Below are positions 2,970 to 45,500 of a stretch of 45,709 bases of DNA, piece after piece. Location of the stretch: the IMG/VR virus record IMGVR_UViG_3300043803_001976, positions 1-45,709 of that record. One strand, given 5' to 3'. The stretch comes from a virus. Under the pieces are notes generated by a model, which was not told where the DNA came from, did no database searches, and saw only the letters and a program-made list of their open reading frames with translations. How positions within the stretch are numbered: position 1 is the first letter of the stretch; every line of letters begins with the position of its first letter. A program made the translations under genes and the position numbers.

Positions 2970-2984
2970 TTTGAGTCAGTCGCA

Positions 2985-3020
2985 CGCCGCGACGATTCGC
3001 AAGGGTGGTCGCGGCGTTTT
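2985..3020 (+). terminator. Rho-independent terminator after the CAU tRNA
   Basis: CGCCGCGAC at 2985-2993 pairs with GTCGCGGCG at 3008-3016 and is followed by TTTT. It would end a short tRNA transcript or attenuate reading into the terminase genes. Confidence 0.7.
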
Positions 3021-7634: not shown

Positions 7635-7674
7635 AAGATATCTGGTTGACACGCCGAAATAGATCGGATATCTT
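7635..7674 (+). promoter_or_regulatory. Strong sigma70 promoter with flanking operator repeat for the left early operon
   Basis: TTGACA at 7646-7651 and TATCTT at 7669-7674 are 17 bp apart. An inverted repeat AAGATATC (7635-7642) and GATATCTT (7667-7674) brackets the -35 and overlaps the -10. GATATC also occurs twice in the lysogeny switch at 15.5 kb, so one repressor may control both. Transcription would start near 7681, just before the first hairpin of the operon. Confidence 0.75.
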
Positions 7675-7684
7675 GTGCTATCTG

Positions 7685-7701
7685 GCATGCATGCCGCATG
7701 C
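7685..7701 (+). promoter_or_regulatory. Leader hairpin with ATGCC loop before the first gene of the operon
   Basis: GCATGC / ATGCC / GCATGC forms a perfect 6-bp stem with the same five-base loop seen in the leaders at 8062, 10189, 10537 and 12046. It lies 11 bases before AAGGAG (7713-7718). The GNRA-capped hairpin found in the other leaders is missing here, because this unit follows the promoter instead of a stop codon. Confidence 0.7.
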
Positions 7702-7724
7702 TGGAGCACACCAAGGAGACACGC

Positions 7725-8021
7725 ATGACGATTCACAAGGACAGCAGCGCGGCCGCAGTGGTGCAGTGGTGCCAGGCCAAGAACCTCCCGGCCGAATTGG
7801 TCGGTCGGTGGGTCTGGGTTTTCTTCACTTCCAAGCCGGACGCGCAGACTCGCGACAGCTTGAAGGAATCCGGGTTCCGCTTCTCCCGTGCCCATGATGG
7901 TCGCCCCGATGGTTGGTACCACACCGGGGGGCACAACCGAGGTCGCCGTCGGCCCGTGAAAGGGTGCGATGCCCGCACCATTCACGGATCGGTCCCCGTC
8001 TCTGAACTCGTGATCTCATGA
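7725..8021 (+). CDS. Hypothetical 98-residue protein, first gene of the left early operon
   Basis: Starts at ATG 7725 six bases behind AAGGAG. The centre has an aromatic segment (LVGRWVWVFFTSKPD, about residues 27-41) followed by a Lys/Gly/Phe-Arg block and a WYH segment. This resembles small phage and plasmid proteins of unknown function with a conserved GxWVWVxF core. No catalytic motif is recognised. It is expressed directly from the repressible promoter at 7646, so it should be among the first proteins made. Confidence 0.75.
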   Translation: MTIHKDSSAAAVVQWCQAKNLPAELVGRWVWVFFTSKPDAQTRDSLKESGFRFSRAHDGRPDGWYHTGGHNRGRRRPVKGCDARTIHGSVPVSELVIS

Positions 8022-8027
8022 ACCACC

Positions 8028-8080
8028 CGACCGGCCCCGGGAAACCGGGCTCGGTCGATTCGGCTTGGATGCCCCAAGCC
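8028..8080 (+). promoter_or_regulatory. Structured intergenic leader A (two hairpins)
   Basis: Hairpin 1 pairs 8028-8040 with 8045-8057 around a GAAA tetraloop, with a 2-nt internal loop. Hairpin 2 pairs GGCTTGG (8062-8068) with CCAAGCC (8074-8080) around ATGCC. It starts seven bases after the stop codon at 8021 and is followed by AAGGAG (8088-8093) and the GTG start at 8102. The stems differ from leaders B-F but keep their pairing. Confidence 0.8.
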
Positions 8081-8101
8081 ATGCACCAAGGAGATTCAAT
8101 C

Positions 8102-9202
8102 GTGTCAGCAGCCACCCTACCTCCAGGCCTTTCCCGACGCATGCCCCTAGGGGATGCGCCATCCAACACGCCCCAAGGGTCAATCCCGTTCACTCGCACC
8201 GTGCGAGAAGCCGCACCCGTGCGGACGAACACGCCCGCCGAAACCGACGACCATGCCGCGACGCTTGCGGCAGCTATCCGGGGTCTGGCTGGATCAGTCA
8301 AGCCCGCCGAGGTTGAAGCCCTTTCGGCCAAGGTTGAAACCCTTGGCGAATGCGTCGACCTCGTTGCCAAGGACGTTTGCGGCTTGCGGACCTTGGTCGA
8401 ATCGATCAAGAGCAGCCCGACCCAGACGATCCGATTCCAGATCGGGGACATGCCCACGGGCCCCGAGATCCGAAACGCCCGGCCCGAGTTGGCACAATTG
8501 GCAGAAGCCGTTGCCATGGGGTTCCAGAACCTTTGGCTTTCCGGTCCCGCCGGATCGGGCAAGACGACCCTAGCCGAAACGCTCGCGAAGGCGCTCGGCC
8601 GCTCGTTCGGTGCGCAATCGTTCGCCGCAGACATGACCGCCGCTCAGCTGGTCGGCGGGATTAATGCCGAGGGAAAGTATCAGGAGACCGCTTTCGTTCA
8701 GGCCTACGAAGCGGGCGGGGTCTACCTGCTCGACGAGATCGATTCGGCACCCGCCGAGATTCTCGTCCAGGTGAACGCCGCGCTTGCGAATGGTCGCTTG
8801 TTCCTTCCCCGTCACCATGACCCCGCCCGCCGCATCATCAATCGCCACGCCGATACCGTGATCGTGGCCGCAGCCAACACATGGGGCACGGGCGGGACTG
8901 CTCAGTATATCGGGCGCTCGCCCATCGATGCTGCCACGCTTGATCGATTCGCTGGCGCTCGGTTCTACGTCGGATATGACGCGAGGCTGGAGGAATCGAT
9001 CCTCTCAGATTCGATGATCCTCGCGCGGATTCGCAAGATCCGGGAGAACATCGGACGTCACAAGATCCGGCAGATTGTGGGCACCCGCTCGGTCATAGCC
9101 GCCGCTCGCATGGTCGCCGCAGGGAAGCCAACCGCCGAGATTCTGGACCGTCTCACGGTCGGATGGTCGGACGAGGAGAAGGCTAAGGCGCTCGCAGAAT
9201 GA
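8102..9202 (+). CDS. MoxR/dynein-type AAA+ ATPase
   Basis: A 366-residue AAA+ protein. The GTG start at 8102 is chosen because AAGGAG lies 8 bases upstream and the structured leader occupies the frame before it. Residues about 50-110 form a helical region with likely coiled coil. The ATPase core has Walker A GPAGSGKT (about 147-154), Walker B YLLDEID (about 207-213) and a sensor-1 Asn in AAANTWG. The family (MoxR, CobS, AAA_5) includes chaperone-like ATPases that work with a von Willebrand A-type partner. The next gene, separated only by a leader hairpin, may be that partner. Role in this phage is unknown; substrate remodelling during takeover or replication is a guess. Confidence 0.85.
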   Translation: MSAATLPPGLSRRMPLGDAPSNTPQGSIPFTRTVREAAPVRTNTPAETDDHAATLAAAIRGLAGSVKPAEVEALSAKVETLGECVDLVAKDVCGLRTLVESIKSSPTQTIRFQIGDMPTGPEIRNARPELAQLAEAVAMGFQNLWLSGPAGSGKTTLAETLAKALGRSFGAQSFAADMTAAQLVGGINAEGKYQETAFVQAYEAGGVYLLDEIDSAPAEILVQVNAALANGRLFLPRHHDPARRIINRHADTVIVAAANTWGTGGTAQYIGRSPIDAATLDRFAGARFYVGYDARLEESILSDSMILARIRKIRENIGRHKIRQIVGTRSVIAAARMVAAGKPTAEILDRLTVGWSDEEKAKALAE

Positions 9203-9208
9203 CACACC

Positions 9209-9234
9209 CGCCGCCCCGGGAAACCGGCGCGGCG
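9209..9234 (+). promoter_or_regulatory. Structured intergenic leader B (GNRA hairpin only)
   Basis: CGCCGCCCCGG (9209-9219) pairs with CCGGCGCGGCG (9224-9234) around GAAA with one mismatch. It begins seven bases after the TGA of the ATPase gene and precedes AAGGAG at 9245-9250. The second hairpin is deleted in this copy. Confidence 0.8.
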
Positions 9235-9258
9235 CGGATTCACCAAGGAGATCCACCC

Positions 9259-10149
9259 ATGATGAAAGCGAACGCAACCAGGGGCAGCAGACGGAGAATC
9301 CAGATCAGAGGGGAGCGGCATTTCGACGCGACCCAGATCCACCGCCCGGAGACATCCAACCCGATCCCGCTCGCTGTCCGGTACTACGACGACTTGGCGG
9401 AATGGTGTTTTCACGCGGAATGGTGGCTCGGGCAGTGCGGGACGAAGCCGCAGGATCGGTATGGCCCTTGGACCAGTCACCCAGAATTCCCAACGTTCGA
9501 AGACGCTTGGAACGCCATGGAAGAGGGGCGAGCGCCGTCGACGTTCCTTGCCCAGCTAGACAGCTATCGGGGGACGTTCGTCGAAACCATCGAGGCGAAT
9601 GGTTGGGCGGAAAGCCGCCGCCGCCGGCTCGTGTGGGGCGATGATGGCGACGAAGCAAACGTTGACCGGGTGCTTGTTGGGCACGAACGCCCCTTCCGCC
9701 GCTCGGTTGCGGGTCGAATGTCCCAGGTTATCCGGCTCGGGCTTGATTCGACCGCGCTCGGAGCATGGGAGGGTGGGCAGTTTGCGCGGGTTGGGGGCTT
9801 GCTTGCAGCCATCGCGGAAACCATCGAGCGGCAGGGGCGATCGGTTGAAATCACCCTCATCGAGACAGAGAACAGCGACCGGAGAGGCACGCACTACGTA
9901 CACGCGTGCACGCTCAAGCACGCATCCGACCCCGTCGACTTGGAACGCATCGGCGCGGTTAGCTCCCCGCTGTTCGCCCGAATCGTCTGTCTCGTGACCG
10001 ACATTTTTGACGCCGGTCAGTACTCGCAACCGGTCAGGCATAGAGACCGGCCCAACATGGCCGAGGAGCTTGGACTAGACGCGATCGTCGGGCTCTACAC
10101 GTCGCTCGACTCGCTCCGCCCGCTGATCGGCGCAGCGACCGCCGTTTGA
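9259..10149 (+). CDS. Partner of the AAA+ ATPase, possible von Willebrand A-like protein
   Basis: A 296-residue protein starting at ATG 9259 behind AAGGAG (9245-9250). The N-terminal third has an aromatic, Trp-rich region (RYYDDLAEWCFHAEWW). The middle is basic. The C-terminal part begins with VIRLGLDSTALGAW, a strand followed by small and polar residues that recalls a MIDAS strand, then a long helix and another strand (SVEITLIETE). This arrangement and the adjacent MoxR-like gene suggest a vWA-type partner, as in MoxR-vWA and CobS-CobT pairs, but a full DxSxS motif is missing. It could be an unrelated phage protein of unknown function. Confidence 0.6.
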   Translation: MMKANATRGSRRRIQIRGERHFDATQIHRPETSNPIPLAVRYYDDLAEWCFHAEWWLGQCGTKPQDRYGPWTSHPEFPTFEDAWNAMEEGRAPSTFLAQLDSYRGTFVETIEANGWAESRRRRLVWGDDGDEANVDRVLVGHERPFRRSVAGRMSQVIRLGLDSTALGAWEGGQFARVGGLLAAIAETIERQGRSVEITLIETENSDRRGTHYVHACTLKHASDPVDLERIGAVSSPLFARIVCLVTDIFDAGQYSQPVRHRDRPNMAEELGLDAIVGLYTSLDSLRPLIGAATAV

Positions 10150-10156
10150 ACACACC

Positions 10157-10203
10157 CGCCGCCCCGGGAAACCGGCGCGGCGAGGCTTGCCCGATGCCCG
10201 GGC
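10157..10203 (+). promoter_or_regulatory. Structured intergenic leader C (two hairpins)
   Basis: Hairpin 1: 10157-10167 pairs with 10172-10182 around GAAA. Hairpin 2: GCCCG (10189-10193) pairs with CGGGC (10199-10203) around ATGCC. The AAGGAG of the next gene (10206-10211) begins two bases after hairpin 2, so the structure could affect ribosome access. Confidence 0.8.
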
Positions 10204-10217
10204 GCAAGGAGATCCAC

Positions 10218-10496
10218 ATGGCAAAGTTCATCGTTCGCGAAGCGCAGACCGTGACCCGTATTGCCTACTTCGAGCACACCATCGAGGCGGAAACGTTCGA
10301 GGAGGCGAAGGCAAAGGTTCGCCGAGGAGAGACACTTGTCGGCGACGTTCGACTTATCACCGAGACGGACGGCGAGTATGGGAACAGCGGGTTCGGCGAA
10401 GACGATGACGAGGCTTTGGAGGCGCTCGAGGAATCCGACCGCATCGAGGCCCTGTGGCGCGACGAGAACGACGAGCCCGACGAGAACGACGAGTAA
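10218..10496 (+). CDS. Small acidic protein (92 residues)
   Basis: Starts at ATG 10218 with AAGGAG 6 bases upstream. Residues 1-50 predict a compact alternating strand/helix fold; the last 40 are very rich in Glu and Asp and end in repeated DEND. Small acidic early phage proteins often mimic DNA or bind host enzymes, but there is no specific match here. It is set between leaders C and D, which implies individually tuned translation. Confidence 0.7.
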   Translation: MAKFIVREAQTVTRIAYFEHTIEAETFEEAKAKVRRGETLVGDVRLITETDGEYGNSGFGEDDDEALEALEESDRIEALWRDENDEPDENDE

Positions 10497-10505
10497 GAAC
10501 ACACC

Positions 10506-10551
10506 CGCCCGCGCCGGAAACGGCTCGGGCGAGCTTGGCCGATGCCCGGCC
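10506..10551 (+). promoter_or_regulatory. Structured intergenic leader D (two hairpins)
   Basis: CGCCCGCGCCG (10506-10516) pairs with CGGCTCGGGCG (10521-10531) around GAAA with one mismatch. GGCCG (10537-10541) pairs with CGGCC (10547-10551) around ATGCC. Several stem pairs differ from leaders B and C on both strands. AGGAG follows at 10556-10560. Confidence 0.85.
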
Positions 10552-10566
10552 CACCAGGAGAACACC

Positions 10567-10857
10567 ATGCACCCCGATATCAAAGATTTTTTGGACACTG
10601 TCGCCGCAGGAAACACCGAGTTTGATCGGCTGGAACAATTGGCAGACGAGCTTCTCGAACGGTTCAAGGACCCGCCGCACGCCGAAATGGTCCGCAAGTG
10701 GGCCAAGGAACTCCACCAGGAAGACGGCGAGGTTGAGATCGACGACGACGCTGCCTTGTCCGAAGGCGACGACAACGGCACATATGTCGCCGCTTGGGTG
10801 TGGGTCAGCTACGCGGGAACCGAGCTTGACAAGAACGCCGAGGAGGTGGAATCGTGA
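10567..10857 (+). CDS. Small acidic protein (96 residues)
   Basis: Starts at ATG 10567 behind AGGAG. The N-terminal two thirds are helical (DRLEQLADELLERFKD); the rest is acidic with an EIDDDAALSEGDD stretch and then a short aromatic strand. No family is recognised. The stop overlaps the GTG start of the next gene, so the two are made together. Confidence 0.7.
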   Translation: MHPDIKDFLDTVAAGNTEFDRLEQLADELLERFKDPPHAEMVRKWAKELHQEDGEVEIDDDAALSEGDDNGTYVAAWVWVSYAGTELDKNAEEVES

Positions 10858-11081
10858 GCGAACGAACCAACGCGGACAGGATCCAATCAGCAGAAGACGC
10901 GATCGACGCCAATCAACACGGGTCGCGGTGGCGAAACGACGACGAAGGTGCCCTCACGGACATCCTTGCCGACCTCATGCATTGGGCCAAGGCAAACAAC
11001 CACGATTTCAACGAGTGCGCCCGCATCGCCAAATCCCACTTTGACGCCGAGGTTGCTGAGGCTGAGGAGGCTGGCGAATGA
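10854..11081 (+). CDS. Small helical protein (75 residues)
   Basis: GTG start at 10854 overlaps the previous stop, behind a GGAGG-type site. The sequence is mostly helical with an HWAKANNHDFNECARIA core and an acidic end. No known family. Its stop overlaps the methylase start (ATGA), so it belongs to a coupled three-gene block. Confidence 0.65.
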   Translation: MSERTNADRIQSAEDAIDANQHGSRWRNDDEGALTDILADLMHWAKANNHDFNECARIAKSHFDAEVAEAEEAGE

Positions 11082-12007
11082 CCCCACAATCCGCCCGCTG
11101 GCGCGGCATCGCGGAGAGTCTGGGGAAGCAGGCTCACGCGAAGATGAACAGCCCGATCGGCCGAATGCGACACACGAGGCGCCGCGCCTCTATCGCGGCG
11201 TCGATGGCCTCAGACGGGCTCGCCCTGCTTGATGCCTCCCGAGCCGCCGAGAAGCTCGCGGACCTCTGGCAACGCCCGCCCGTGCCCTTCCCGCTCGGTT
11301 CTATCCGATCGGGGCGACAACTCCGCGAGATCGTGCGCGGATGGCACGGCGACCTTGAGCCGGACCAGGCGGAGAAGGCCCGCGAGATGCTCAAGACCGA
11401 GCGCCCGCCCGAGGACAGCAGGGAAATCGAGCTTGCCGACTTGCTCCGCACGATCCGCGGCGGGGCACGGAACATCCCCGGATTCTTCCCCACCCCGCCC
11501 AAGCTCGTTGACCTCATGATCGACTGCGCGGACATCGGGCCGGACGTCCGGAACGTGCTGGAACCGTCGGCAGGGATCGGGTCGATCGTGGATCGACTGC
11601 GAGAGCGACACCCCGAGATTCCGAACGTGCTTTGCATCGAGCGGAACGCACAGCTTTGCGAGGTTCTCCGGCTCAAAGATCACACCTTCGAGAACGAGGA
11701 TTTTCTCGCGTGCGGGGTGGAGGAAGCGAGCATCGACGTCGTGCTCATGAACCCGCCTTTCGAGAACGGGCAGGATGCCGAGCACGTCGCGCACGCGTTC
11801 AGATCCCTGCGCCCGGGTGGTCGGTTGGTGGCAATTGTGTCAGAGGGGTTGTTCTATCGGAACGACCAGAAGGCGCACGCGTTCAGGCTGCTGCTGTTGG
11901 ACCACGGCAAGTACGTCCAGGAGCTTGCCGACGCGTTCAATGGTCCGGACGCGTTCGTCCCGACTGGCGTGCGGACCCGGCTCGTGGTGCTCGACAAGCC
12001 CGTTTGA
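11078..12007 (+). CDS. N6-adenine-type DNA methyltransferase
   Basis: A 309-residue SAM-dependent methylase. Residues about 150-170 contain the SAM-binding motif I (LEPSAGIGS) and a later acidic strand end (LCIER). NPPF at about residues 224-227 is the catalytic motif IV of amino-methyltransferases. The N-terminal 100 residues are helical and precede a segment resembling the FPTPxxLVDLM entry of phage methylases. Either phage or host DNA is the likely target, for example to evade restriction. No restriction partner is present, so it is an orphan methylase. Confidence 0.8.
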   Translation: MTPQSARWRGIAESLGKQAHAKMNSPIGRMRHTRRRASIAASMASDGLALLDASRAAEKLADLWQRPPVPFPLGSIRSGRQLREIVRGWHGDLEPDQAEKAREMLKTERPPEDSREIELADLLRTIRGGARNIPGFFPTPPKLVDLMIDCADIGPDVRNVLEPSAGIGSIVDRLRERHPEIPNVLCIERNAQLCEVLRLKDHTFENEDFLACGVEEASIDVVLMNPPFENGQDAEHVAHAFRSLRPGGRLVAIVSEGLFYRNDQKAHAFRLLLLDHGKYVQELADAFNGPDAFVPTGVRTRLVVLDKPV

Positions 12008-12014
12008 ACACACC

Positions 12015-12060
12015 CGCGCGTCCCGGAAACGAGACGCGCGAGGTTTCCGGATGCCCCGGA
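12015..12060 (+). promoter_or_regulatory. Structured intergenic leader E (two hairpins)
   Basis: CGCGCGTCCCG (12015-12025) pairs with CGAGACGCGCG (12030-12040) around GAAA with one mismatch. TCCGG (12046-12050) pairs with CCGGA (12056-12060) around ATGCC. AAGGAG follows one base later (12062-12067). The stems are almost entirely different in sequence from leaders B and D. Confidence 0.85.
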
Positions 12061-12073
12061 CAAGGAGATTTGC

Positions 12074-12247
12074 ATGATGAACGTGAATCAGACAGAGGAG
12101 ATCAGCCCGCAGGAGGCCAAGGTGCTTGACCGCATTTTGGAGGACATCAAGAACGCCCGCCCGATTCCCGCCGAGCCTCAGTGCTCCCACGGCGCGGTGA
12201 AGTGCCAAGTGTGCGGCCACCGCACCACGAAGGGAGGTGTATCTTGA
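12074..12247 (+). CDS. Small zinc-finger-like protein (57 residues)
   Basis: ATG 12074 (or 12077) behind AAGGAG. Residues 1-30 are a helix; the C-terminal half has CSH, then CQVCGH, a likely single zinc-binding site using Cys37/His39, Cys44, Cys47 and His49. Function is unknown; such proteins often bind nucleic acid. The stop overlaps a TTG start. Confidence 0.6.
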   Translation: MMNVNQTEEISPQEAKVLDRILEDIKNARPIPAEPQCSHGAVKCQVCGHRTTKGGVS

Positions 12248-12408
12248 CGCTCTTCGACTACCTCTACGCCTGCTCGCTGTGGCAGTGGTGCGGGAATCTC
12301 GCCGCGGTTGGCCTCATCGCATGGGGCGTCCGTCACTGGTCGTTCCTGAACATCAACTCCGGCATGAACTCGGGGTCCATCTTCACGACCGAGAAGGGCA
12401 AGCCCTGA
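12244..12408 (+). CDS. Small membrane protein (54 residues)
   Basis: TTG start at 12244 overlapping the previous stop, with a strong GGAGGT upstream. Residues about 14-30 form one hydrophobic segment (GNLAAVGLIAWGV). The remainder is polar. Possible roles include superinfection exclusion or host membrane modification, but there is no direct evidence. Confidence 0.55.
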   Translation: MTLFDYLYACSLWQWCGNLAAVGLIAWGVRHWSFLNINSGMNSGSIFTTEKGKP

Positions 12409-12413
12409 AACAA

Positions 12414-12463
12414 CGCACCCGCCCGGGGAACCGGACGGGTGCGATTCTCGGGGTTGCCGCCCC
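12414..12463 (+). promoter_or_regulatory. Structured intergenic leader F (diverged)
   Basis: An outer CGCACCCG/CGGGTGCG stem and inner CCGG/CCGG stem (12414-12426 with 12431-12443) are separated by one mismatch and capped by GGAA, again a GNRA tetraloop. A second hairpin GGGG-TTGCCG-CCCC follows (12450-12463), whose loop partly matches ATGCC. AAGGAG lies at 12494-12499. Confidence 0.75.
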
Positions 12464-12506
12464 AAGAGCCGACGGCTAGCACGCCGGCCTCACAAGGAGA
12501 AGTTCG

Positions 12507-12686
12507 ATGGTAGACGACAAGTCCAGGCCCAGGACGCACACGCAAATCAGCGTCCGCAAGGCCGATCAGGTGGTCGAGATGGCGCGAGAGTTTGCCGCCA
12601 AGCTCGCCAAGGAGAAGGGCGTCAGGGTGTCGGTGGGTGACGCCGTCCGTGTCGCGTTGCAGCAGGCGATTGGGGAGGAACGATGA
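12507..12686 (+). CDS. Small ribbon-helix-helix-like protein (59 residues)
   Basis: ATG 12507 behind AAGGAG. After a basic N terminus, HTQISVRK reads as the DNA-contacting beta strand, followed by two helices ending in SVGDAVRVALQQAIGEE. That pattern is typical of Arc/MetJ-type repressors, which bind DNA as dimers. It could regulate this operon or the lysogeny switch. It overlaps the next tiny frame (ATGA). Confidence 0.6.
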   Translation: MVDDKSRPRTHTQISVRKADQVVEMAREFAAKLAKEKGVRVSVGDAVRVALQQAIGEER

Positions 12687-13777: not shown

Positions 13778-14853
13778 ACATCGGCGTACAGCTTCATTCG
13801 AACGGCGAATACTGGCAAGCGAAGTGGAGGACCACCACCGGCAAGCGGGTCGCCAAGTCCATCGGCAGCAAGGCGAAGGTCAGCAAGGCCGAAGCACTCC
13901 GCGCGTGCCGCGAGATCGCCCGCGACCACATCCTTGAGCCTGGGAGCGAGGACGCGGGGAACGCGCCGCTTCTCTCCGCGTGGAGGACCGCGTACCTCAA
14001 GTCGCACTCCGAACTCAAGGAAGGGACGGTCAACCTCAAGATGCAGACCTTCGCCAAGCTGCTCGATCACTTTGGCGACATCCGGCTCGATCGGATCACC
14101 CGCGCGGGCGCCGCGGCGTTCCGAACATGGATGCTCGGGAAGGAGCTTTCCGCGGCGACCGTCAGCCGGTACATCCGGGACGCGAAGTCCATCTTCCGAG
14201 AGGCTCGTGATCAAGACCTCATCCGGCTCAACCCGTTCGACCGGGTGTCGGGCGCGTCTCCCGACATGGCGAAGACCTGGGCGGTCATCAGCCACGACGA
14301 CCTGCGTCGGCTCCTGGACGCCGTCCCCGACGCGGCGTGGCGAGCCCTGGTCGGAATGTGCAGGCTCGCCGGCCTACGCCGCGGCGAGGCTCTGAGGCTC
14401 CGCGTGCAGGACGTGGACTTGGTCGAGCGGGTCCTCTCGGTCTACCCCGAGGGGTTCGTCGAGGGCACCAAGCAGGCGTACCGAACCGTTCCGATCACAC
14501 CCGCGCTCGCGGCGATTCTCCGGGAGTCGATCGACGCGGTTCCGGACGGGGAGGAGCGGTTGTGCTGGTCGATCTACGGGCGGAACGTGGATCGGGACAT
14601 TCGGACGTACCTTGGCCGAGCGGGCATCCCCAAGTACGGCAAGCCGCTCCACACGCTGCGGAAGAATCTCGAGTCCGAATGGCTCGCGATCCATCCCGCG
14701 CCCGCGGTGTGTGCGTGGCTCGGCCACTCGCCCGCGGTCGCGATGAAGCATTACAACAAGCCGCCACCCGAGGTGGTGGCGAAGGTGACGGGGCTGCCAC
14801 AGCCGGGCACAAATCTGGCACAATTGCCAACCCTAACAGACGAAAAGCACTAG
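13774..14853 (+). CDS. int: Tyrosine-family integrase
   Basis: A 359-residue site-specific recombinase. The frame is open upstream to 13618, but ATG 13774 overlaps the preceding stop and starts the usual arm-binding domain. Residues 1-60 are the arm-type DNA-binding domain, 65-155 the core-binding SAM-like domain, and 170-330 the catalytic domain. Catalytic residues are visible: Arg202 (GLRRGE), His293 and Arg296 (HTLR), His318 (LGHS) and the nucleophile Tyr327 (KHYNK). The stop codon abuts attP, which is a partial tRNA-Gly. The gene is the last of the left early operon and carries one dispersed dyad near its end (14816-14829). Confidence 0.93.
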   Translation: MNIGVQLHSNGEYWQAKWRTTTGKRVAKSIGSKAKVSKAEALRACREIARDHILEPGSEDAGNAPLLSAWRTAYLKSHSELKEGTVNLKMQTFAKLLDHFGDIRLDRITRAGAAAFRTWMLGKELSAATVSRYIRDAKSIFREARDQDLIRLNPFDRVSGASPDMAKTWAVISHDDLRRLLDAVPDAAWRALVGMCRLAGLRRGEALRLRVQDVDLVERVLSVYPEGFVEGTKQAYRTVPITPALAAILRESIDAVPDGEERLCWSIYGRNVDRDIRTYLGRAGIPKYGKPLHTLRKNLESEWLAIHPAPAVCAWLGHSPAVAMKHYNKPPPEVVAKVTGLPQPGTNLAQLPTLTDEKH

Positions 14854-14899
14854 CGGGCGACCGGATTCGAACCGGCGACGTACAGCTTGGAAGGCTTGT
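14852..14899 (-). other. attP: attP core: 3' half of tRNA-Gly (UCC)
   Basis: On the minus strand this reads as the anticodon loop CTTCCAA (14893-14887, anticodon TCC), the 3' anticodon stem, variable loop, T-arm with TTCGAAT and the acceptor 3' strand CGCCCGC plus discriminator U. The 5' half is absent. Phages that insert into tRNA genes carry exactly this piece to restore the gene. CCA is not encoded, suggesting the host gene also lacks it. The integrase stop codon overlaps its end. Confidence 0.88.
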
Positions 14900-14918
14900 G
14901 TCGCACCCCCTACCAAAC

Positions 14919-15011: not shown

Positions 15012-15173
15012 TCAGCGGACGGGCTCGACGATCCGAACCCCGTGCACAGGCGTCCCGTCCATCGTGTAGACCTTGACGCCGACAACGCTGTGCAGTGCCG
15101 CCAGGATCATCGCAAGCAAGACGGCGATCGCGACGAGGACAACGAGGGTGGCGATTCGCATGGCCCGGTCCAT
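15012..15173 (-). CDS. Small membrane protein, second gene of the lysogeny-side operon (53 residues)
   Basis: The minus-strand ATG at 15173-15171 overlaps the stop of the RHH gene (TAATG). Residues about 6-27 are one strongly hydrophobic segment after a short basic start, and the C terminus has a small strand-rich polar domain. Lysogeny operons often carry such membrane proteins downstream of the repressor as superinfection exclusion factors; that is inference from position. Confidence 0.65.
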   Translation of the reverse strand: MDRAMRIATLVVLVAIAVLLAMILAALHSVVGVKVYTMDGTPVHGVRIVEPVR

Positions 15174-15445
15174 TAGGCCACGCCCTTGTAGCAGGCGGCG
15201 ATGGCGGCGGCTGCTTGCGACACCCTTCCCGGCGACAACGTGCCGAGAATGAGCTGTTGTGATTCGTGATCAAGGTTCGCCAGCCACAAAACGACGCGCT
15301 CGATAAGCACAGTGCGAGACATCGCATGCCGAACCACCAATGAATCAGTGGCCTCCACGGTGGCGTCGGTCACGCGGATCATTTGGCCGGACACTTTCGC
15401 CGGCTTGGGCGCGTGCGGTTTGCTGCGAGAACTAGCTGCTGTCAT
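15173..15445 (-). CDS. Ribbon-helix-helix regulator, candidate lysogeny repressor (90 residues)
   Basis: ATG at 15445 follows AGGGAG on the minus strand. After a basic, Pro/Ser-rich arm, QMIRVT reads as the beta strand of an RHH fold; the next two helices end in VLIERVVLWLANLD. RHH proteins such as Arc bind operators as paired dimers. The gene is divergent from another RHH gene at 15588 with the two promoters back to back, the arrangement of cI and cro. It is transcribed toward attP with a small membrane protein. It is therefore the best candidate for the immunity repressor; no classical CI-type HTH protein is seen. Confidence 0.65.
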   Translation of the reverse strand: MTAASSRSKPHAPKPAKVSGQMIRVTDATVEATDSLVVRHAMSRTVLIERVVLWLANLDHESQQLILGTLSPGRVSQAAAAIAACYKGVA

Positions 15446-15469
15446 GATCAATCTCCCTTTGGTTAGGGA

Positions 15470-15497
15470 ATGGTACCTAGTGATATCCACGAGTCAA
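15470..15497 (-). promoter_or_regulatory. Minus-strand promoter of the repressor operon, with operator
   Basis: On the minus strand TTGACT (15497-15492) and TACCAT (15475-15470) are 16 bp apart. GATATC at 15482-15487 lies in the spacer, where bound repressor would block it. Confidence 0.65.
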
Positions 15498-16663: not shown

Positions 16664-17403
16664 ACTGGAGTGAGCAAGTCGACAAGCTGGCCTCCGCGAT
16701 GGTCGCGTTCCAAGCCGACACTCCGAACGTGCCGCGCGGGTCGACCGCGAAGGTCACGATGAAGGCCGGCGGTTCGTACGCGTTCAACTTTGCCGACCTT
16801 GCTAGGGTCCGGGCACACACCCGCGAGTCCATGGGTCGTCACGGCTTGGGATTCACGAGCGGGACCGAGATCATCATCGACGGCGAGAACACCCGGGCTC
16901 GCGTTACCACCCGCGTGTTCCATGTGTCCGGCCAGTGGGTTGAGCAGTCGATCTGCATGTGGCTTGAGGATGGTCGCCCGCAGTCCGTCGGCTCGGCGCA
17001 GACCTACGCCACCCGCTACAACGTCATGGCCCTGCTTGGGCTCGCCGCCGACGACGAGGATGATGATGGCAACGTTGCCAGCGGCAACCGGGCCACGGTC
17101 GAGCAGCGAGTCAAGGCGACGGTCGACAAGGTGAGGGCCGATGCCGCGGCGAAAGTCGGCGACAACTCTGCCTCGCCTTCGTCCCCCTCGCCCTCCACCT
17201 TCGGCCCGGTGTTCATCCAGAAGCTCCAGGCCAAACTCACCGCGATCGGCAAGACCACAGGGGCACTGCGCGACGTGATGCTGAAAGCCGGCGTCGACAA
17301 CGCCCTGTGCCCGACCGACGACCCGAAGACTTGGAACACGTCTCTCCAAGAACGAATCAAGAAGTGGGTTGATGCCCAACTCACCCCGCCCAACAAGGAG
17401 TAG
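16660..17403 (+). CDS. erf: ERF-family single-strand annealing protein
   Basis: A 247-residue protein with ATG overlapping the exonuclease stop and a GAGGAGG site. Residues about 5-145 match the ERF superfamily pattern: a first helix, YAFNFADLARV, a strand-rich section, and the conserved SAQTYATRYNVMALLGLAADDEDD block (120-143 region). The remainder is a linker and a C-terminal helical tail. ERF proteins coat and anneal complementary strands, as in P22. With the exonuclease it makes a complete two-component recombination system, which may support concatemer formation in a phage without its own DNA polymerase. Confidence 0.88.
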   Translation: MNWSEQVDKLASAMVAFQADTPNVPRGSTAKVTMKAGGSYAFNFADLARVRAHTRESMGRHGLGFTSGTEIIIDGENTRARVTTRVFHVSGQWVEQSICMWLEDGRPQSVGSAQTYATRYNVMALLGLAADDEDDDGNVASGNRATVEQRVKATVDKVRADAAAKVGDNSASPSSPSPSTFGPVFIQKLQAKLTAIGKTTGALRDVMLKAGVDNALCPTDDPKTWNTSLQERIKKWVDAQLTPPNKE

Positions 17404-17408
17404 TCACC

Positions 17409-18323
17409 ATGGCAGTCCGCGCATTGAAGATCGCGAAGCTCGTTCGCGACCCGTCGATCCAGCCCCGCACCGATCTCGACAAGGAGTCGATCCAGCAGTA
17501 CGCCGACGCGATGGAGGCGGGCGCCGTGTTCCCGCCGATCGCGGTGTTCAAGATCGACAAGAAGTTCATCGTCGTCGCCGGCTGGCACCGCATCGCCGCC
17601 GCGGAGCTTCGCGGCTTGGCCGAGATCCGCGCCGAGATCATCGAGGACAAGACTCTGCGTGACGCAAAGCTGTTCGCGATCGGCGACAACAGCAAGCACG
17701 GCGTCAGGCTGAGCAACGCCGACAAGCGGCGAGCGGTCGAGTCGCTTCTCCAGGACGACGAGTGGGCGTCCAAGTCCAACCGCGAGATCGCCGCCTACTG
17801 CGGCGTGTCACATGAGCACGTTCGCCGGATCAAGGAAGAGCGGGAGCGGCCCGACGACACCGCGCCCGAAGAAGCCGAGCCCAAGCCCGCGACCGAATCG
17901 ACCGGCGAGACGGGCGAGAGTGGCGATTCGTGGGGCGACGAGGAGACGAAGCCCGAGGGCGAATCCAAGCCGACGACCATCGAGGAGCCGATGCGAGACA
18001 AGGTCGGCAACTTCGTCCCGCCCGCGCTGATTCCCGCGTTCACCGAAGGCTCGGACTTCTTCAAGGCCGCGATCCACAACCTCACCGCGACCCGCGATTC
18101 GCTCGCCGAGGCGGCGAAGGTCGGCCAATTCGGCAAGTTCCTCCGCGAGCAGGACGTCACGATCCCGATCAACAACGTCATCGAGTCGCTCAAGTTCGCG
18201 CGTCCGCACGCCGTCTGTCCCGAGTGCGAAGGCAGGGGGTGCGACCCGTGCCGGCAGCAGGGTTGGATGCCGAAGGCGCTGTACGACGCGGCCGTTGAGA
18301 GCGAGCCGGTTCCGACCGAGTGA
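17409..18323 (+). CDS. ParB-like protein with HTH and C-terminal zinc motif
   Basis: A 304-residue protein behind AAGGAG. Residues 6-95 form a ParB/sulfiredoxin-fold domain with the GWHR segment (58-61) in the place of the CTP/nucleotide loop. Residues about 120-143 are a helix-turn-helix (SNREIAAYCGVSHEHVRRI). A Pro/Glu/Thr-rich linker (145-200) leads to a C-terminal domain ending with CPEC (270-273) and CDPC (278-281), a zinc knuckle. Phage ParB-like proteins may act in replication, partition or transcription. Whether it binds the dispersed dyads is an attractive but unsupported idea. A terminator follows directly. Confidence 0.8.
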   Translation: MAVRALKIAKLVRDPSIQPRTDLDKESIQQYADAMEAGAVFPPIAVFKIDKKFIVVAGWHRIAAAELRGLAEIRAEIIEDKTLRDAKLFAIGDNSKHGVRLSNADKRRAVESLLQDDEWASKSNREIAAYCGVSHEHVRRIKEERERPDDTAPEEAEPKPATESTGETGESGDSWGDEETKPEGESKPTTIEEPMRDKVGNFVPPALIPAFTEGSDFFKAAIHNLTATRDSLAEAAKVGQFGKFLREQDVTIPINNVIESLKFARPHAVCPECEGRGCDPCRQQGWMPKALYDAAVESEPVPTE

Positions 18324-42535: not shown

Positions 42536-45500
42536 ATGAGCAGACTCACACGCACCAGCCCGCTTCTGCCGATCGGTGCCGCGGACCTTGTCGACGCAGA
42601 CCAACGCGCAGAGGCGTTCGCCCAAGACCAGAGCATCTGGGAGGCGAACCGGACTTCGTTCGGGGCGGGCATGAGCGGCTTTACCACGATGGAGCTTGGC
42701 CGCAACATCGCCAGCTCGCTCTACGCGGTCGACCCCAACTGGGAGCTGACGGACGTCGATCTCAAGGGCGTCACGGACGGGATTGACCCGGACTTGTGGC
42801 AGTTCTACGACGACGCCAAGAGCTACAAGCACCTGCTCTACATCTACGGCCGGAATCAAGCCGTGATGGACAAGCGGCGAACGCTCGCCGAGAACGGCAT
42901 CCGTGGGTTCGGCGGCCAGCTTGCCGCGGGACTGCTTGATCCCGGCATGCTCGCCGCGGGCGCTGCCACTGGCGGGCTTGCCGGGTACATCCGCGGCACC
43001 GGCGTGGCGGCGTCGGCAATGCGGATTGGTGTTGGCGCCGCGGCCGGCGGCGTTCCCCAAGGTGCTCTCACGGCGTTCCAGAGTTCGGCAGACCCGTCGA
43101 TCAGCGGCAAAGAGGTCGCCAAGTCTTTCATCGGCGGTGCGATGTTCGGTGGCGTCTCCGTCGGGACCGCCACGCTTGGCCGCGGGACGCGGTTCCTCGC
43201 CGGCGCCGCGGGACAGGCCGCGGGTCCGGCGGCGATCGACTACGCGACCGGGACGCCGCTTCCTGACGCGATGCTCGAGCTTGGAACCAATCTCATCTTC
43301 GGCGGGGTGTTCAACTCGCTCCATTCCTCCGCCGCGATGAAGGTGGCGGAGCTGCCGCCCGACGCACCTGTCGTGCCCGACAGCCCCGCGCCGACCAAGC
43401 CGCCGTACGACCCGTACACCGGGATGTCAGAGCTTGATCGGCTGCTTCACAAAGAAGACTTGTCTCGGCTTGGCTTGTCGATCGACAAGAGCACGGCAAT
43501 GGTGCCGCCGACCAATCCTGGCCGCGACACTCCGCAGATCCAGACTCTCGACGACATCCTTGCCGCTCCGGTCATTTCCGATCTCGACCAACTACTCTCG
43601 CGCCCTGTCGCCAAATCGCCGCCGTTGCCAAGCAAAGCGGCAAGAGAGTCTTGGGCAAGCGACCTGTCCGAAAGGCTCAGTGTCGCACTTAGTCGTCTTC
43701 CAGACCTCGCCGGAGAGTCACGCGCAGACGCCGAAACCGCGGCCGGATTGGCGCGTGCTGCGGCGGATCCGCTCACCGCACTCCAGAACGCTTTGCGATC
43801 AGAGGAGTTCACGGATCTGCAGATCCTTTTGGCAAGGCAGGATGTTCAGGACTTGATCGAGCTGGACAAGAGCACGGCAATGGTGCCGCCGACCAATCCT
43901 GGCCGGGACGCCCCGCAGATCCAGACCCTTGACGACATCCTCACCTCGCCTCCACAGAACCCCGATGGCGCCGCCTTGCTTTCCGGCTTGCTCGAAGGCC
44001 GCTTCACGACCGACCCGATCACTCCCGCGGCGATTCAGAAGATGAAGCCCGAGCGCCGCAAGCGACTCGCGAAGGCGACCGTTGCCGCGGCGGCGGCGAA
44101 GCCCGGCGGCGTTGATCGGTTGGTCAAGGCGATCGAGAAGGAGGCTGCGACCAAGGCTATTGCCGCGACGTTTGACAACGCGGGCCGCGCGATGGTCGGC
44201 GATGCCGTCGTTGAGGCTGCCGCGGCCGAGGGGCGAGAGCTGACGCCTGCGGAGAAGATCAGGCACGCCGAGTCTGTGGACGATGCCAAGGTCGAAAGCC
44301 GCGTGTCTGCGGCCCTTGAGGCTGTCGGATCCACCACGCCCAAGCCCGCGGCGGTCGAGAAGCCGGCCGATCCGCCGATCCCTCAGCCCGAGTCCACGTT
44401 CCGCGCGTACCGCTTCACGCGGAACGGGCTCTTTGATCGGCTTGCTGAATTGCGAGCCGAAAGCCCTCAGAACAAGGACGCCGAGGTTCTGGCAGACTTG
44501 GCGTTCAGTGGTGGCAGCGAGGAGAACATCAAGGGTGGCGACCGAAGCAACTCGATCACCAAGGCGAGCGGAAGCCCGTTTGTGTGGAAGGCCGGCAAAG
44601 ATGGCCGGTTGCCGGAAGAAGTTCGGCAGATGTTTGAGGGGACACCGTTCTACAAGCATTTCCGCGTTGCCAAGCCCGGAGAGGTCGCGGGCGGCGAAGA
44701 GTTCATGTTTAGTGCCGGCCCAGAGGGCTTTGTCCGGCTCATCAACGATCGGTACGGCGCGGAGGTGAATCGGTGGGACGCTGATTTCCGCAGGGATTTG
44801 ATGGCGTGGGCTAAGGACAAAGTCCACGGCAACCCCGAGGCCCTGTTCATCGCCCAGATTCTCGACAACCTCTCGGAGTCCAAGGCCAAGGTCTTCGACA
44901 AGAACGTCGCATTCGCGGCAGCGGACGACATCCAGCCGGGGCACGAGTTCAAGATCAGCGACACCCTCTACCGCGTCATCGAGGACGAGGACGGCGCCAA
45001 GCTCATCGTCGACGGGCCGGGCTTTGAGCCCGTGGAAGCGTCCGCGCTTGCGCTCATCCCGTACGACCGCGGATCGCTGCGGCCGACGCAGATCAGCGAC
45101 AACCCGTTTGCCGACGTTCCGGACATCTCCCCGCTCAGTGCGGCCGAGGCCACCAAGCTCGAGGGCGTGTACGGCAGCGCCGAGTTCGTCGCCCTGGTTG
45201 ATCCCGTCGAAGCCCGACGCGTTCTGGCCGAGATCGAAGCGGGCTCGCCGCGGGTGCCTTCGGCGGAAGATGCTGCCCACAAAAAGTGGCTCTCCGAGCA
45301 AGTTCGTGACGAGGCCGGCGAAACAGGCGACATGGTTGACGATCCGCCCGCAAGCGATGAGGCAAGCAGGCTCGATCGCATGCTTGACGAAGGGCTTGTT
45401 GAGGGTGAGGCAGACGACATCGGAAAGCAGGTCGACAACATTCTCGCGGGCAACACTGGCCCCTTTGAGCAGCTCAAGACCATGGCGGGCAAGAATCCCG

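Follow-up and report, generated by a model that had tools for sequence, protein, structure and literature searches.

Two families of covarying RNA hairpins at the early gene junctions of a phage genome, possible elements of a translational regulon

The early operon of the phage genome in IMG/VR record IMGVR_UViG_3300043803_001976 carries hairpins in gap after gap between its genes, which raises the question of what these hairpins are and what they do. The window, i.e., the whole stretch of DNA that was analysed, comprises the full 45,709 nt of this record. Its ends carry a 124-bp direct terminal repeat, indicating a whole circular genome of approximately 45.6 kb. The phage encodes a T7-type RNA polymerase, a terminase, a T7-like internal virion protein, a head-tail adaptor and tail proteins, as well as a tyrosine integrase. 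Beside the integrase gene lies attP, which consists of the 3′ part of a tRNA-Gly (UCC) gene (14853-14900, minus strand). In the genome contigs searched, an exact 41-mer of this tRNA-Gly had six matches, exclusively in MAGs of Phycisphaerales, which makes this order the likely host. The phage is most likely a complete temperate T7-like podovirus of Phycisphaerales (Planctomycetota). Prophages or prophage fragments with a T7-type RNA polymerase, 31-40% identical, are present in seven of 400 genomes of the host order (loci L058-L065 and L067-L077). Elsewhere in the window, an 86-bp stretch near the right end is repeated with 90% identity at a distance of 381 bases (43484-43950), and two long GCAA-capped hairpins (2861-2896 and 2984-3017) flank the tRNA-Met of the phage (2895-2970), for which they are possible processing signals.

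The early operon is preceded by a sigma-70-type promoter, TTGACA-17-TATCTT (7646-7674, plus strand), with GATATC repeats on both sides. In a scan of the plus strand between 7000 and 15600 this was the only promoter-like site; none was found in the gaps of the operon, and sigma-70 promoters were rejected as an explanation of the gap sequences. The GATATC-containing repeats around the early promoter (7640-7695) resemble a repressor operator, and a minus-strand ORF (15173-15490) could encode the corresponding candidate repressor.

The first-pass annotation had described the gaps as carrying six copies of one leader with a GNRA-capped hairpin. These six hairpins, here called H1, were recovered on the plus strand at exactly the positions it had given. 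Copy A (8028-8057) follows the stop codon at 8021, copy B (9209-9234) precedes the DUF7192 gene (start at 9259), and the others are copies C (10157-10182), D (10506-10531), E (12015-12040) and F (12414-12443). The loop is GAAA in five copies and GGAA in F. All six have a single 1x1 mismatch with a C on the 5′ side, which had been overlooked before. It is located five positions from the loop in most copies, and the base opposite the C is, from A to F, C, C, C, U, A and A. Consequently, a stem of 11 positions contains 10 pairs and one of 13 positions contains 12, instead of the 11-13 bp that had been claimed. The distance to the stop codon, said to be 5-7 nt, is 5-9 nt. The CACCCG described as the start of each leader stands for A to E, where it corresponds to an unpaired ACACC followed by the first CG of the stem, but in F it lies inside the stem. 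The copies share an unpaired, A/C-rich 5′ flank that mostly reads ACACC.

In the region 8021-12507, H1 is present in every gap between non-overlapping genes (6/6). The junctions at which genes overlap by ATGA, GTGA or TTGA (10854, 11078, 12244 and 12683) do not have it, and it is likewise missing from the late gaps of the genome. GNRA-capped stems of at least 10 bp occur ten times in the genome, compared to 2.0 times in shuffled sequences (maximum 5), and six of these ten are the H1 copies. Each full leader also folds better than dinucleotide shuffles of the same leader, with z-scores between -2.8 and -4.2.

As had been noted earlier, the stem letters of H1 differ between copies while pairing is kept. 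In alignment A2, 8 of the 13 pair positions have changed on both sides. The covariation score is 0.533 versus 0.139, a value reached by none of 500 shuffles, and the signal is lost once the arms are slid by one base. A covariance model, R1, such as the first-pass annotation had proposed, detects the six copies at 47-56 bits, the next match in the genome (18.6 bits) being the reverse strand of copy F. Copies B and C, to judge from a stretch of 33 identical nucleotides, are a recent duplicate or the product of conversion. The caveat that the whole family might reflect recent duplication with random drift of the stems holds for this pair. It is disfavoured for A, D, E and F, each of which keeps its pairing while 2-6 doubly compensated pairs separate it from the others and from B/C. 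An encoded peptide can be dismissed on the ground that had been given before, as inspection confirmed that the reading frame through the leaders varies from copy to copy.

The second hairpin, here called H2, directly precedes the Shine–Dalgarno (SD) region. Six copies on the plus strand have the loop AUGCC. These are the H2 of the first gene of the operon (7681-7705; 10-bp stem; gene start at 7725), copy A (8062-8080; 7 bp) before the AAA ATPase gene with its GTG start at 8102, copy C (10188-10204; 6 bp) before the gene at 10218, copy D (10537-10551; 5 bp) before the gene at 10567, copy E (12046-12060; 5 bp) before the gene at 12074, and a copy before the ParB-like gene at 17409 (17364-17384; 8 bp), which belongs to another gene block and lies within the 3′-terminal part of erf, the upstream coding sequence. 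Throughout these six copies all five letters of the loop are invariant, and at all seven aligned pair positions both partners vary while remaining paired. The covariation score is 1.133 versus 0.305, again reached by none of 500 shuffles. H2 thereby combines a fixed loop, maintained pairing and a free stem sequence, as is characteristic of a hairpin operator. A strong SD, CAAGGAGA, follows H2 at a distance of 1-10 nt. This string, or nearly the same one, is common to the genes with H1 or H2 elements, the ribosome binding site (RBS) motif being (CAC)CAAGGAGA.

No other pentaloop is as frequent in the genome as AUGCC, which caps ten stems of at least 5 bp, compared to 0.7 expected (maximum 4 in 60 shuffles), and six of these ten stand directly before an SD and a start codon. 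In a descriptor scan for H2 followed by an SD, AUGCC accounted for six of the seven SD-proximal pentaloop hairpins of the phage, for none of the 55 found in 400 kb of host sequence, for one of 23 in the related prophages together with an AAA-gene relative, and for 2 of 193 in virus contigs related by their RNA polymerase. A further AUGCC-loop hairpin (7963-7979), with 6 bp and a longer outer stem, lies within the terminal part of the first early gene, away from any SD.

Because the stems vary in sequence but remain paired, both families are real, selected RNA elements, and they probably control early gene expression. The description of a single two-hairpin leader is not supported, as H1 and H2 also occur apart. 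The second hairpin had been reported in all copies but B. This is correct for B, which has H1 only, and for A, C, D and E; in F the second hairpin is degenerate (12447-12468, plus strand; loop UUGCCG; gene start at 12507). Conversely, the H2 copies at 7681 and 17364 have no H1. Accordingly, H1 goes with the 3′ side of the preceding gene, H2 goes with the 5′ side of the following gene, and the two are better read as independent RNA modules.

Three roles had been suggested for the leaders: control of ribosome access, RNase protection, or a protein site similar to boxB. Control of ribosome access by folding alone found no support. The predicted accessibility of the SD and start codon is about the same with the native leader, a shuffled leader or none, and exposure or sequestration of the RBS was rejected, as folding prediction gave no consistent effect. 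Protection against RNases is possible for H1. For H2 the boxB-like protein site is favoured, since its loop is invariant while the stem drifts. A drifting stem under a fixed loop suggests that H2 is read at the loop, and its position 1-10 nt before the SD would make control of translation the first choice.

The reading that we prefer, to which we assign a probability of roughly 45%, is that H2 would be a sequence-specific RNA operator of a translational regulon, with H1 as an intercistronic 3′-end hairpin. A trans-acting factor would recognise the individual bases of the fixed AUGCC loop; most likely this would be an RNA-binding protein encoded by the phage or the host. Bound to H2, this factor would compete with the 30S subunit, so that translation of at least six early genes would be set or shut off as one regulon. 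H1, which immediately follows the stop codon at each junction without gene overlap, would most likely mark the upstream cistron's 3′ end and protect it, or else partly terminate transcription, so that the early cistrons could be expressed separately. H2 also stands ahead of the operon's first gene, which has no cistron upstream of it, and, in the case of parB, within erf; both placements speak for this reading. A more specific form, with a putative new RNA-binding factor reading AUGCC hairpins in front of the SDs of early genes and an independent, mismatch-bearing GNRA family separating the cistrons, is put forward more tentatively. Among the phage proteins scanned, no RNA-binding protein of a known family was recognisable. 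This speaks against the preferred reading, as do the lack of H2 in B, the altered loop in F and the folding predictions, in which the leaders on their own leave SD access unchanged. The six H2 copies may share recent ancestry, and part of the support for a specific loop reader rests on them.

The alternative that survives best concerns segmentation and stability of the mRNA, and we consider it rather unlikely. The transcript would be cut in the gaps, H1 capping the 3′ end upstream of the cut and H2 the 5′ end downstream of it, in the manner of the RNase III sites in the T7 early operon, which requires no loop reader. Such an arrangement agrees with the fact that H1 always follows a stop codon and H2 always precedes an SD, with the short A/U-containing linker between both hairpins, and with the H2 at 7681, which closely follows the promoter (7646-7674) and sits at the extreme 5′ end of the primary transcript. 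It leaves the invariant AUGCC loop over drifting stems unexplained, however, and the H2 before parB sits within an intact upstream gene without any H1. Moreover, stems of 10-12 bp are short for RNase III substrates.

Whether H1 acts as a terminator was considered separately. The first-pass annotation had denied that the leaders are plain terminators, and this is borne out. Only 2-3 T are present in the eight bases after each H1, while phage and host terminators have T-runs, so that the G+C hairpin and U-tract of an intrinsic terminator are not found together. H1 could still be a weak terminator in the style of the host, giving graded expression down the operon, but we judge this improbable. 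The best R1 matches in the host, of up to 45 bits, are terminator-like hairpins, many of them behind groEL, or coding sequence, and they were rejected as copies of H1. These best matches include GNRA-capped hairpins in the groEL-dnaJ gap of Phycisphaerales, ending in ATTC or CTTC without a T-run and sometimes with one internal mismatch, which are very like H1 (loci L127, L129, L130 and L131). These look-alikes fit a role of H1 at cistron borders, be it 3′-end protection, processing or partial termination, and they are what speaks for weak termination. On the other hand, these matches were selected by the model itself, other terminators of host and phage do have T-runs, and six terminators in series after a single promoter would leave too little transcription for the distal genes.

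Antitermination sites, similar to boxB or to put of HK022 and acting on the transcribing polymerase, are a quite improbable explanation. RNAs of approximately 65 nt with two hairpins in the early operon of a temperate phage would suit them, and boxB has a GNRA-type loop as well. Nevertheless, copies are present in every gap instead of a single promoter-proximal one, only H2 accompanies the first gene, H2 adjoins the SD, and an N-like protein was not found in the phage. Finally, a repeat spread by duplication and drifting without function is very hard to uphold, as the 33 identical bases in B and C are set against compensated pairing in the other copies, and every copy lies at a junction and in the orientation of the genes.

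Relatives of these elements were sought in several collections. With Rfam 15 at the gathering score, two tRNAs were the only matches in the whole window, H1 and H2 giving none. Pattern scans of IMG/VR returned chance matches and a single further record that shares this early region, a contig identical to it (100% over 14.5 kb). The search of phage genomes with a covariance model, advocated earlier, was carried out with R1 on 47 virus records related by their RNA polymerase and yielded no carrier. Neither did R1 find a second carrier in 400 genomes of the host order or in the related Phycisphaerales prophages, with the limit that these genome searches score a limited number of candidates per genome and could miss a weak copy. 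The gaps of these prophages have no repeat family of their own. No relatives of the DUF7192 protein were found in Phycisphaerales, and no paper describing a phage hairpin with an AUGCC loop was found in the literature. As far as these comparisons reach, both the sequences of H1 and H2 and their two-module form are new, and the elements belong to a single phage lineage, the evidence coming from one genome and one identical contig.

The MS2 coat protein site and lambda boxB consist of a short, largely free stem and a fixed loop that is read by a phage protein. H2, with its putative reader, resembles them in this respect, but unlike them is present in many copies in one genome. To our knowledge, AUGCC has not been described as an operator loop. 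In phage T7, RNase III sites lie between the early genes. The hairpins described here likewise occupy the gaps of an early operon in a phage with a T7-type RNA polymerase, but they differ in structure and have shorter stems.

The closest described case is that of the SAS and ESAS elements of Cluster K mycobacteriophages. SAS is a repeated RBS motif in the larger gaps of non-structural genes, and about half of its copies have the ESAS inverted repeat upstream; all are oriented with the genes and absent from the host and from other phages (PMC3203893). H1 and H2 share this layout, being gene-oriented repeats in the gaps of one phage genome. The 13-bp GGGATAGGAGCCC-type RBS motif of SAS, by contrast, is replaced by the motif given above. 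For ESAS, the authors found little support for RNA pairing, as the arm sequences are conserved and the changes in the two arms do not match (PMC3203893). Later work located SigA-like promoters in ESAS (PMC11373665). The arms of H1 and H2, in contrast, differ and covary under fixed loops, and the gaps contain no promoter.

A second comparison is RegA of phage T4, a small factor that represses approximately 30 early mRNAs at the translation start region by binding A+U-rich sites without secondary structure, which overlap the AUG or lie immediately 5′ of it (PMC3014915). H2 may exert translational control of the RegA or coat-protein type. Unlike RegA sites, it is a fixed-loop hairpin upstream of the SD, and a relative of RegA was not found in the phage.

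Repeats associated with gene starts are known in several phage groups, and in the best-studied case RNA structure has been argued against. The covariation within this one genome shows that such start-associated elements can be RNA, built from two modules and with a named fixed loop. Little is known about the control of phage genes in Planctomycetota. If H2 is read by a phage factor, this would add a new RNA-protein pair and phage-wide translational control in this phylum.
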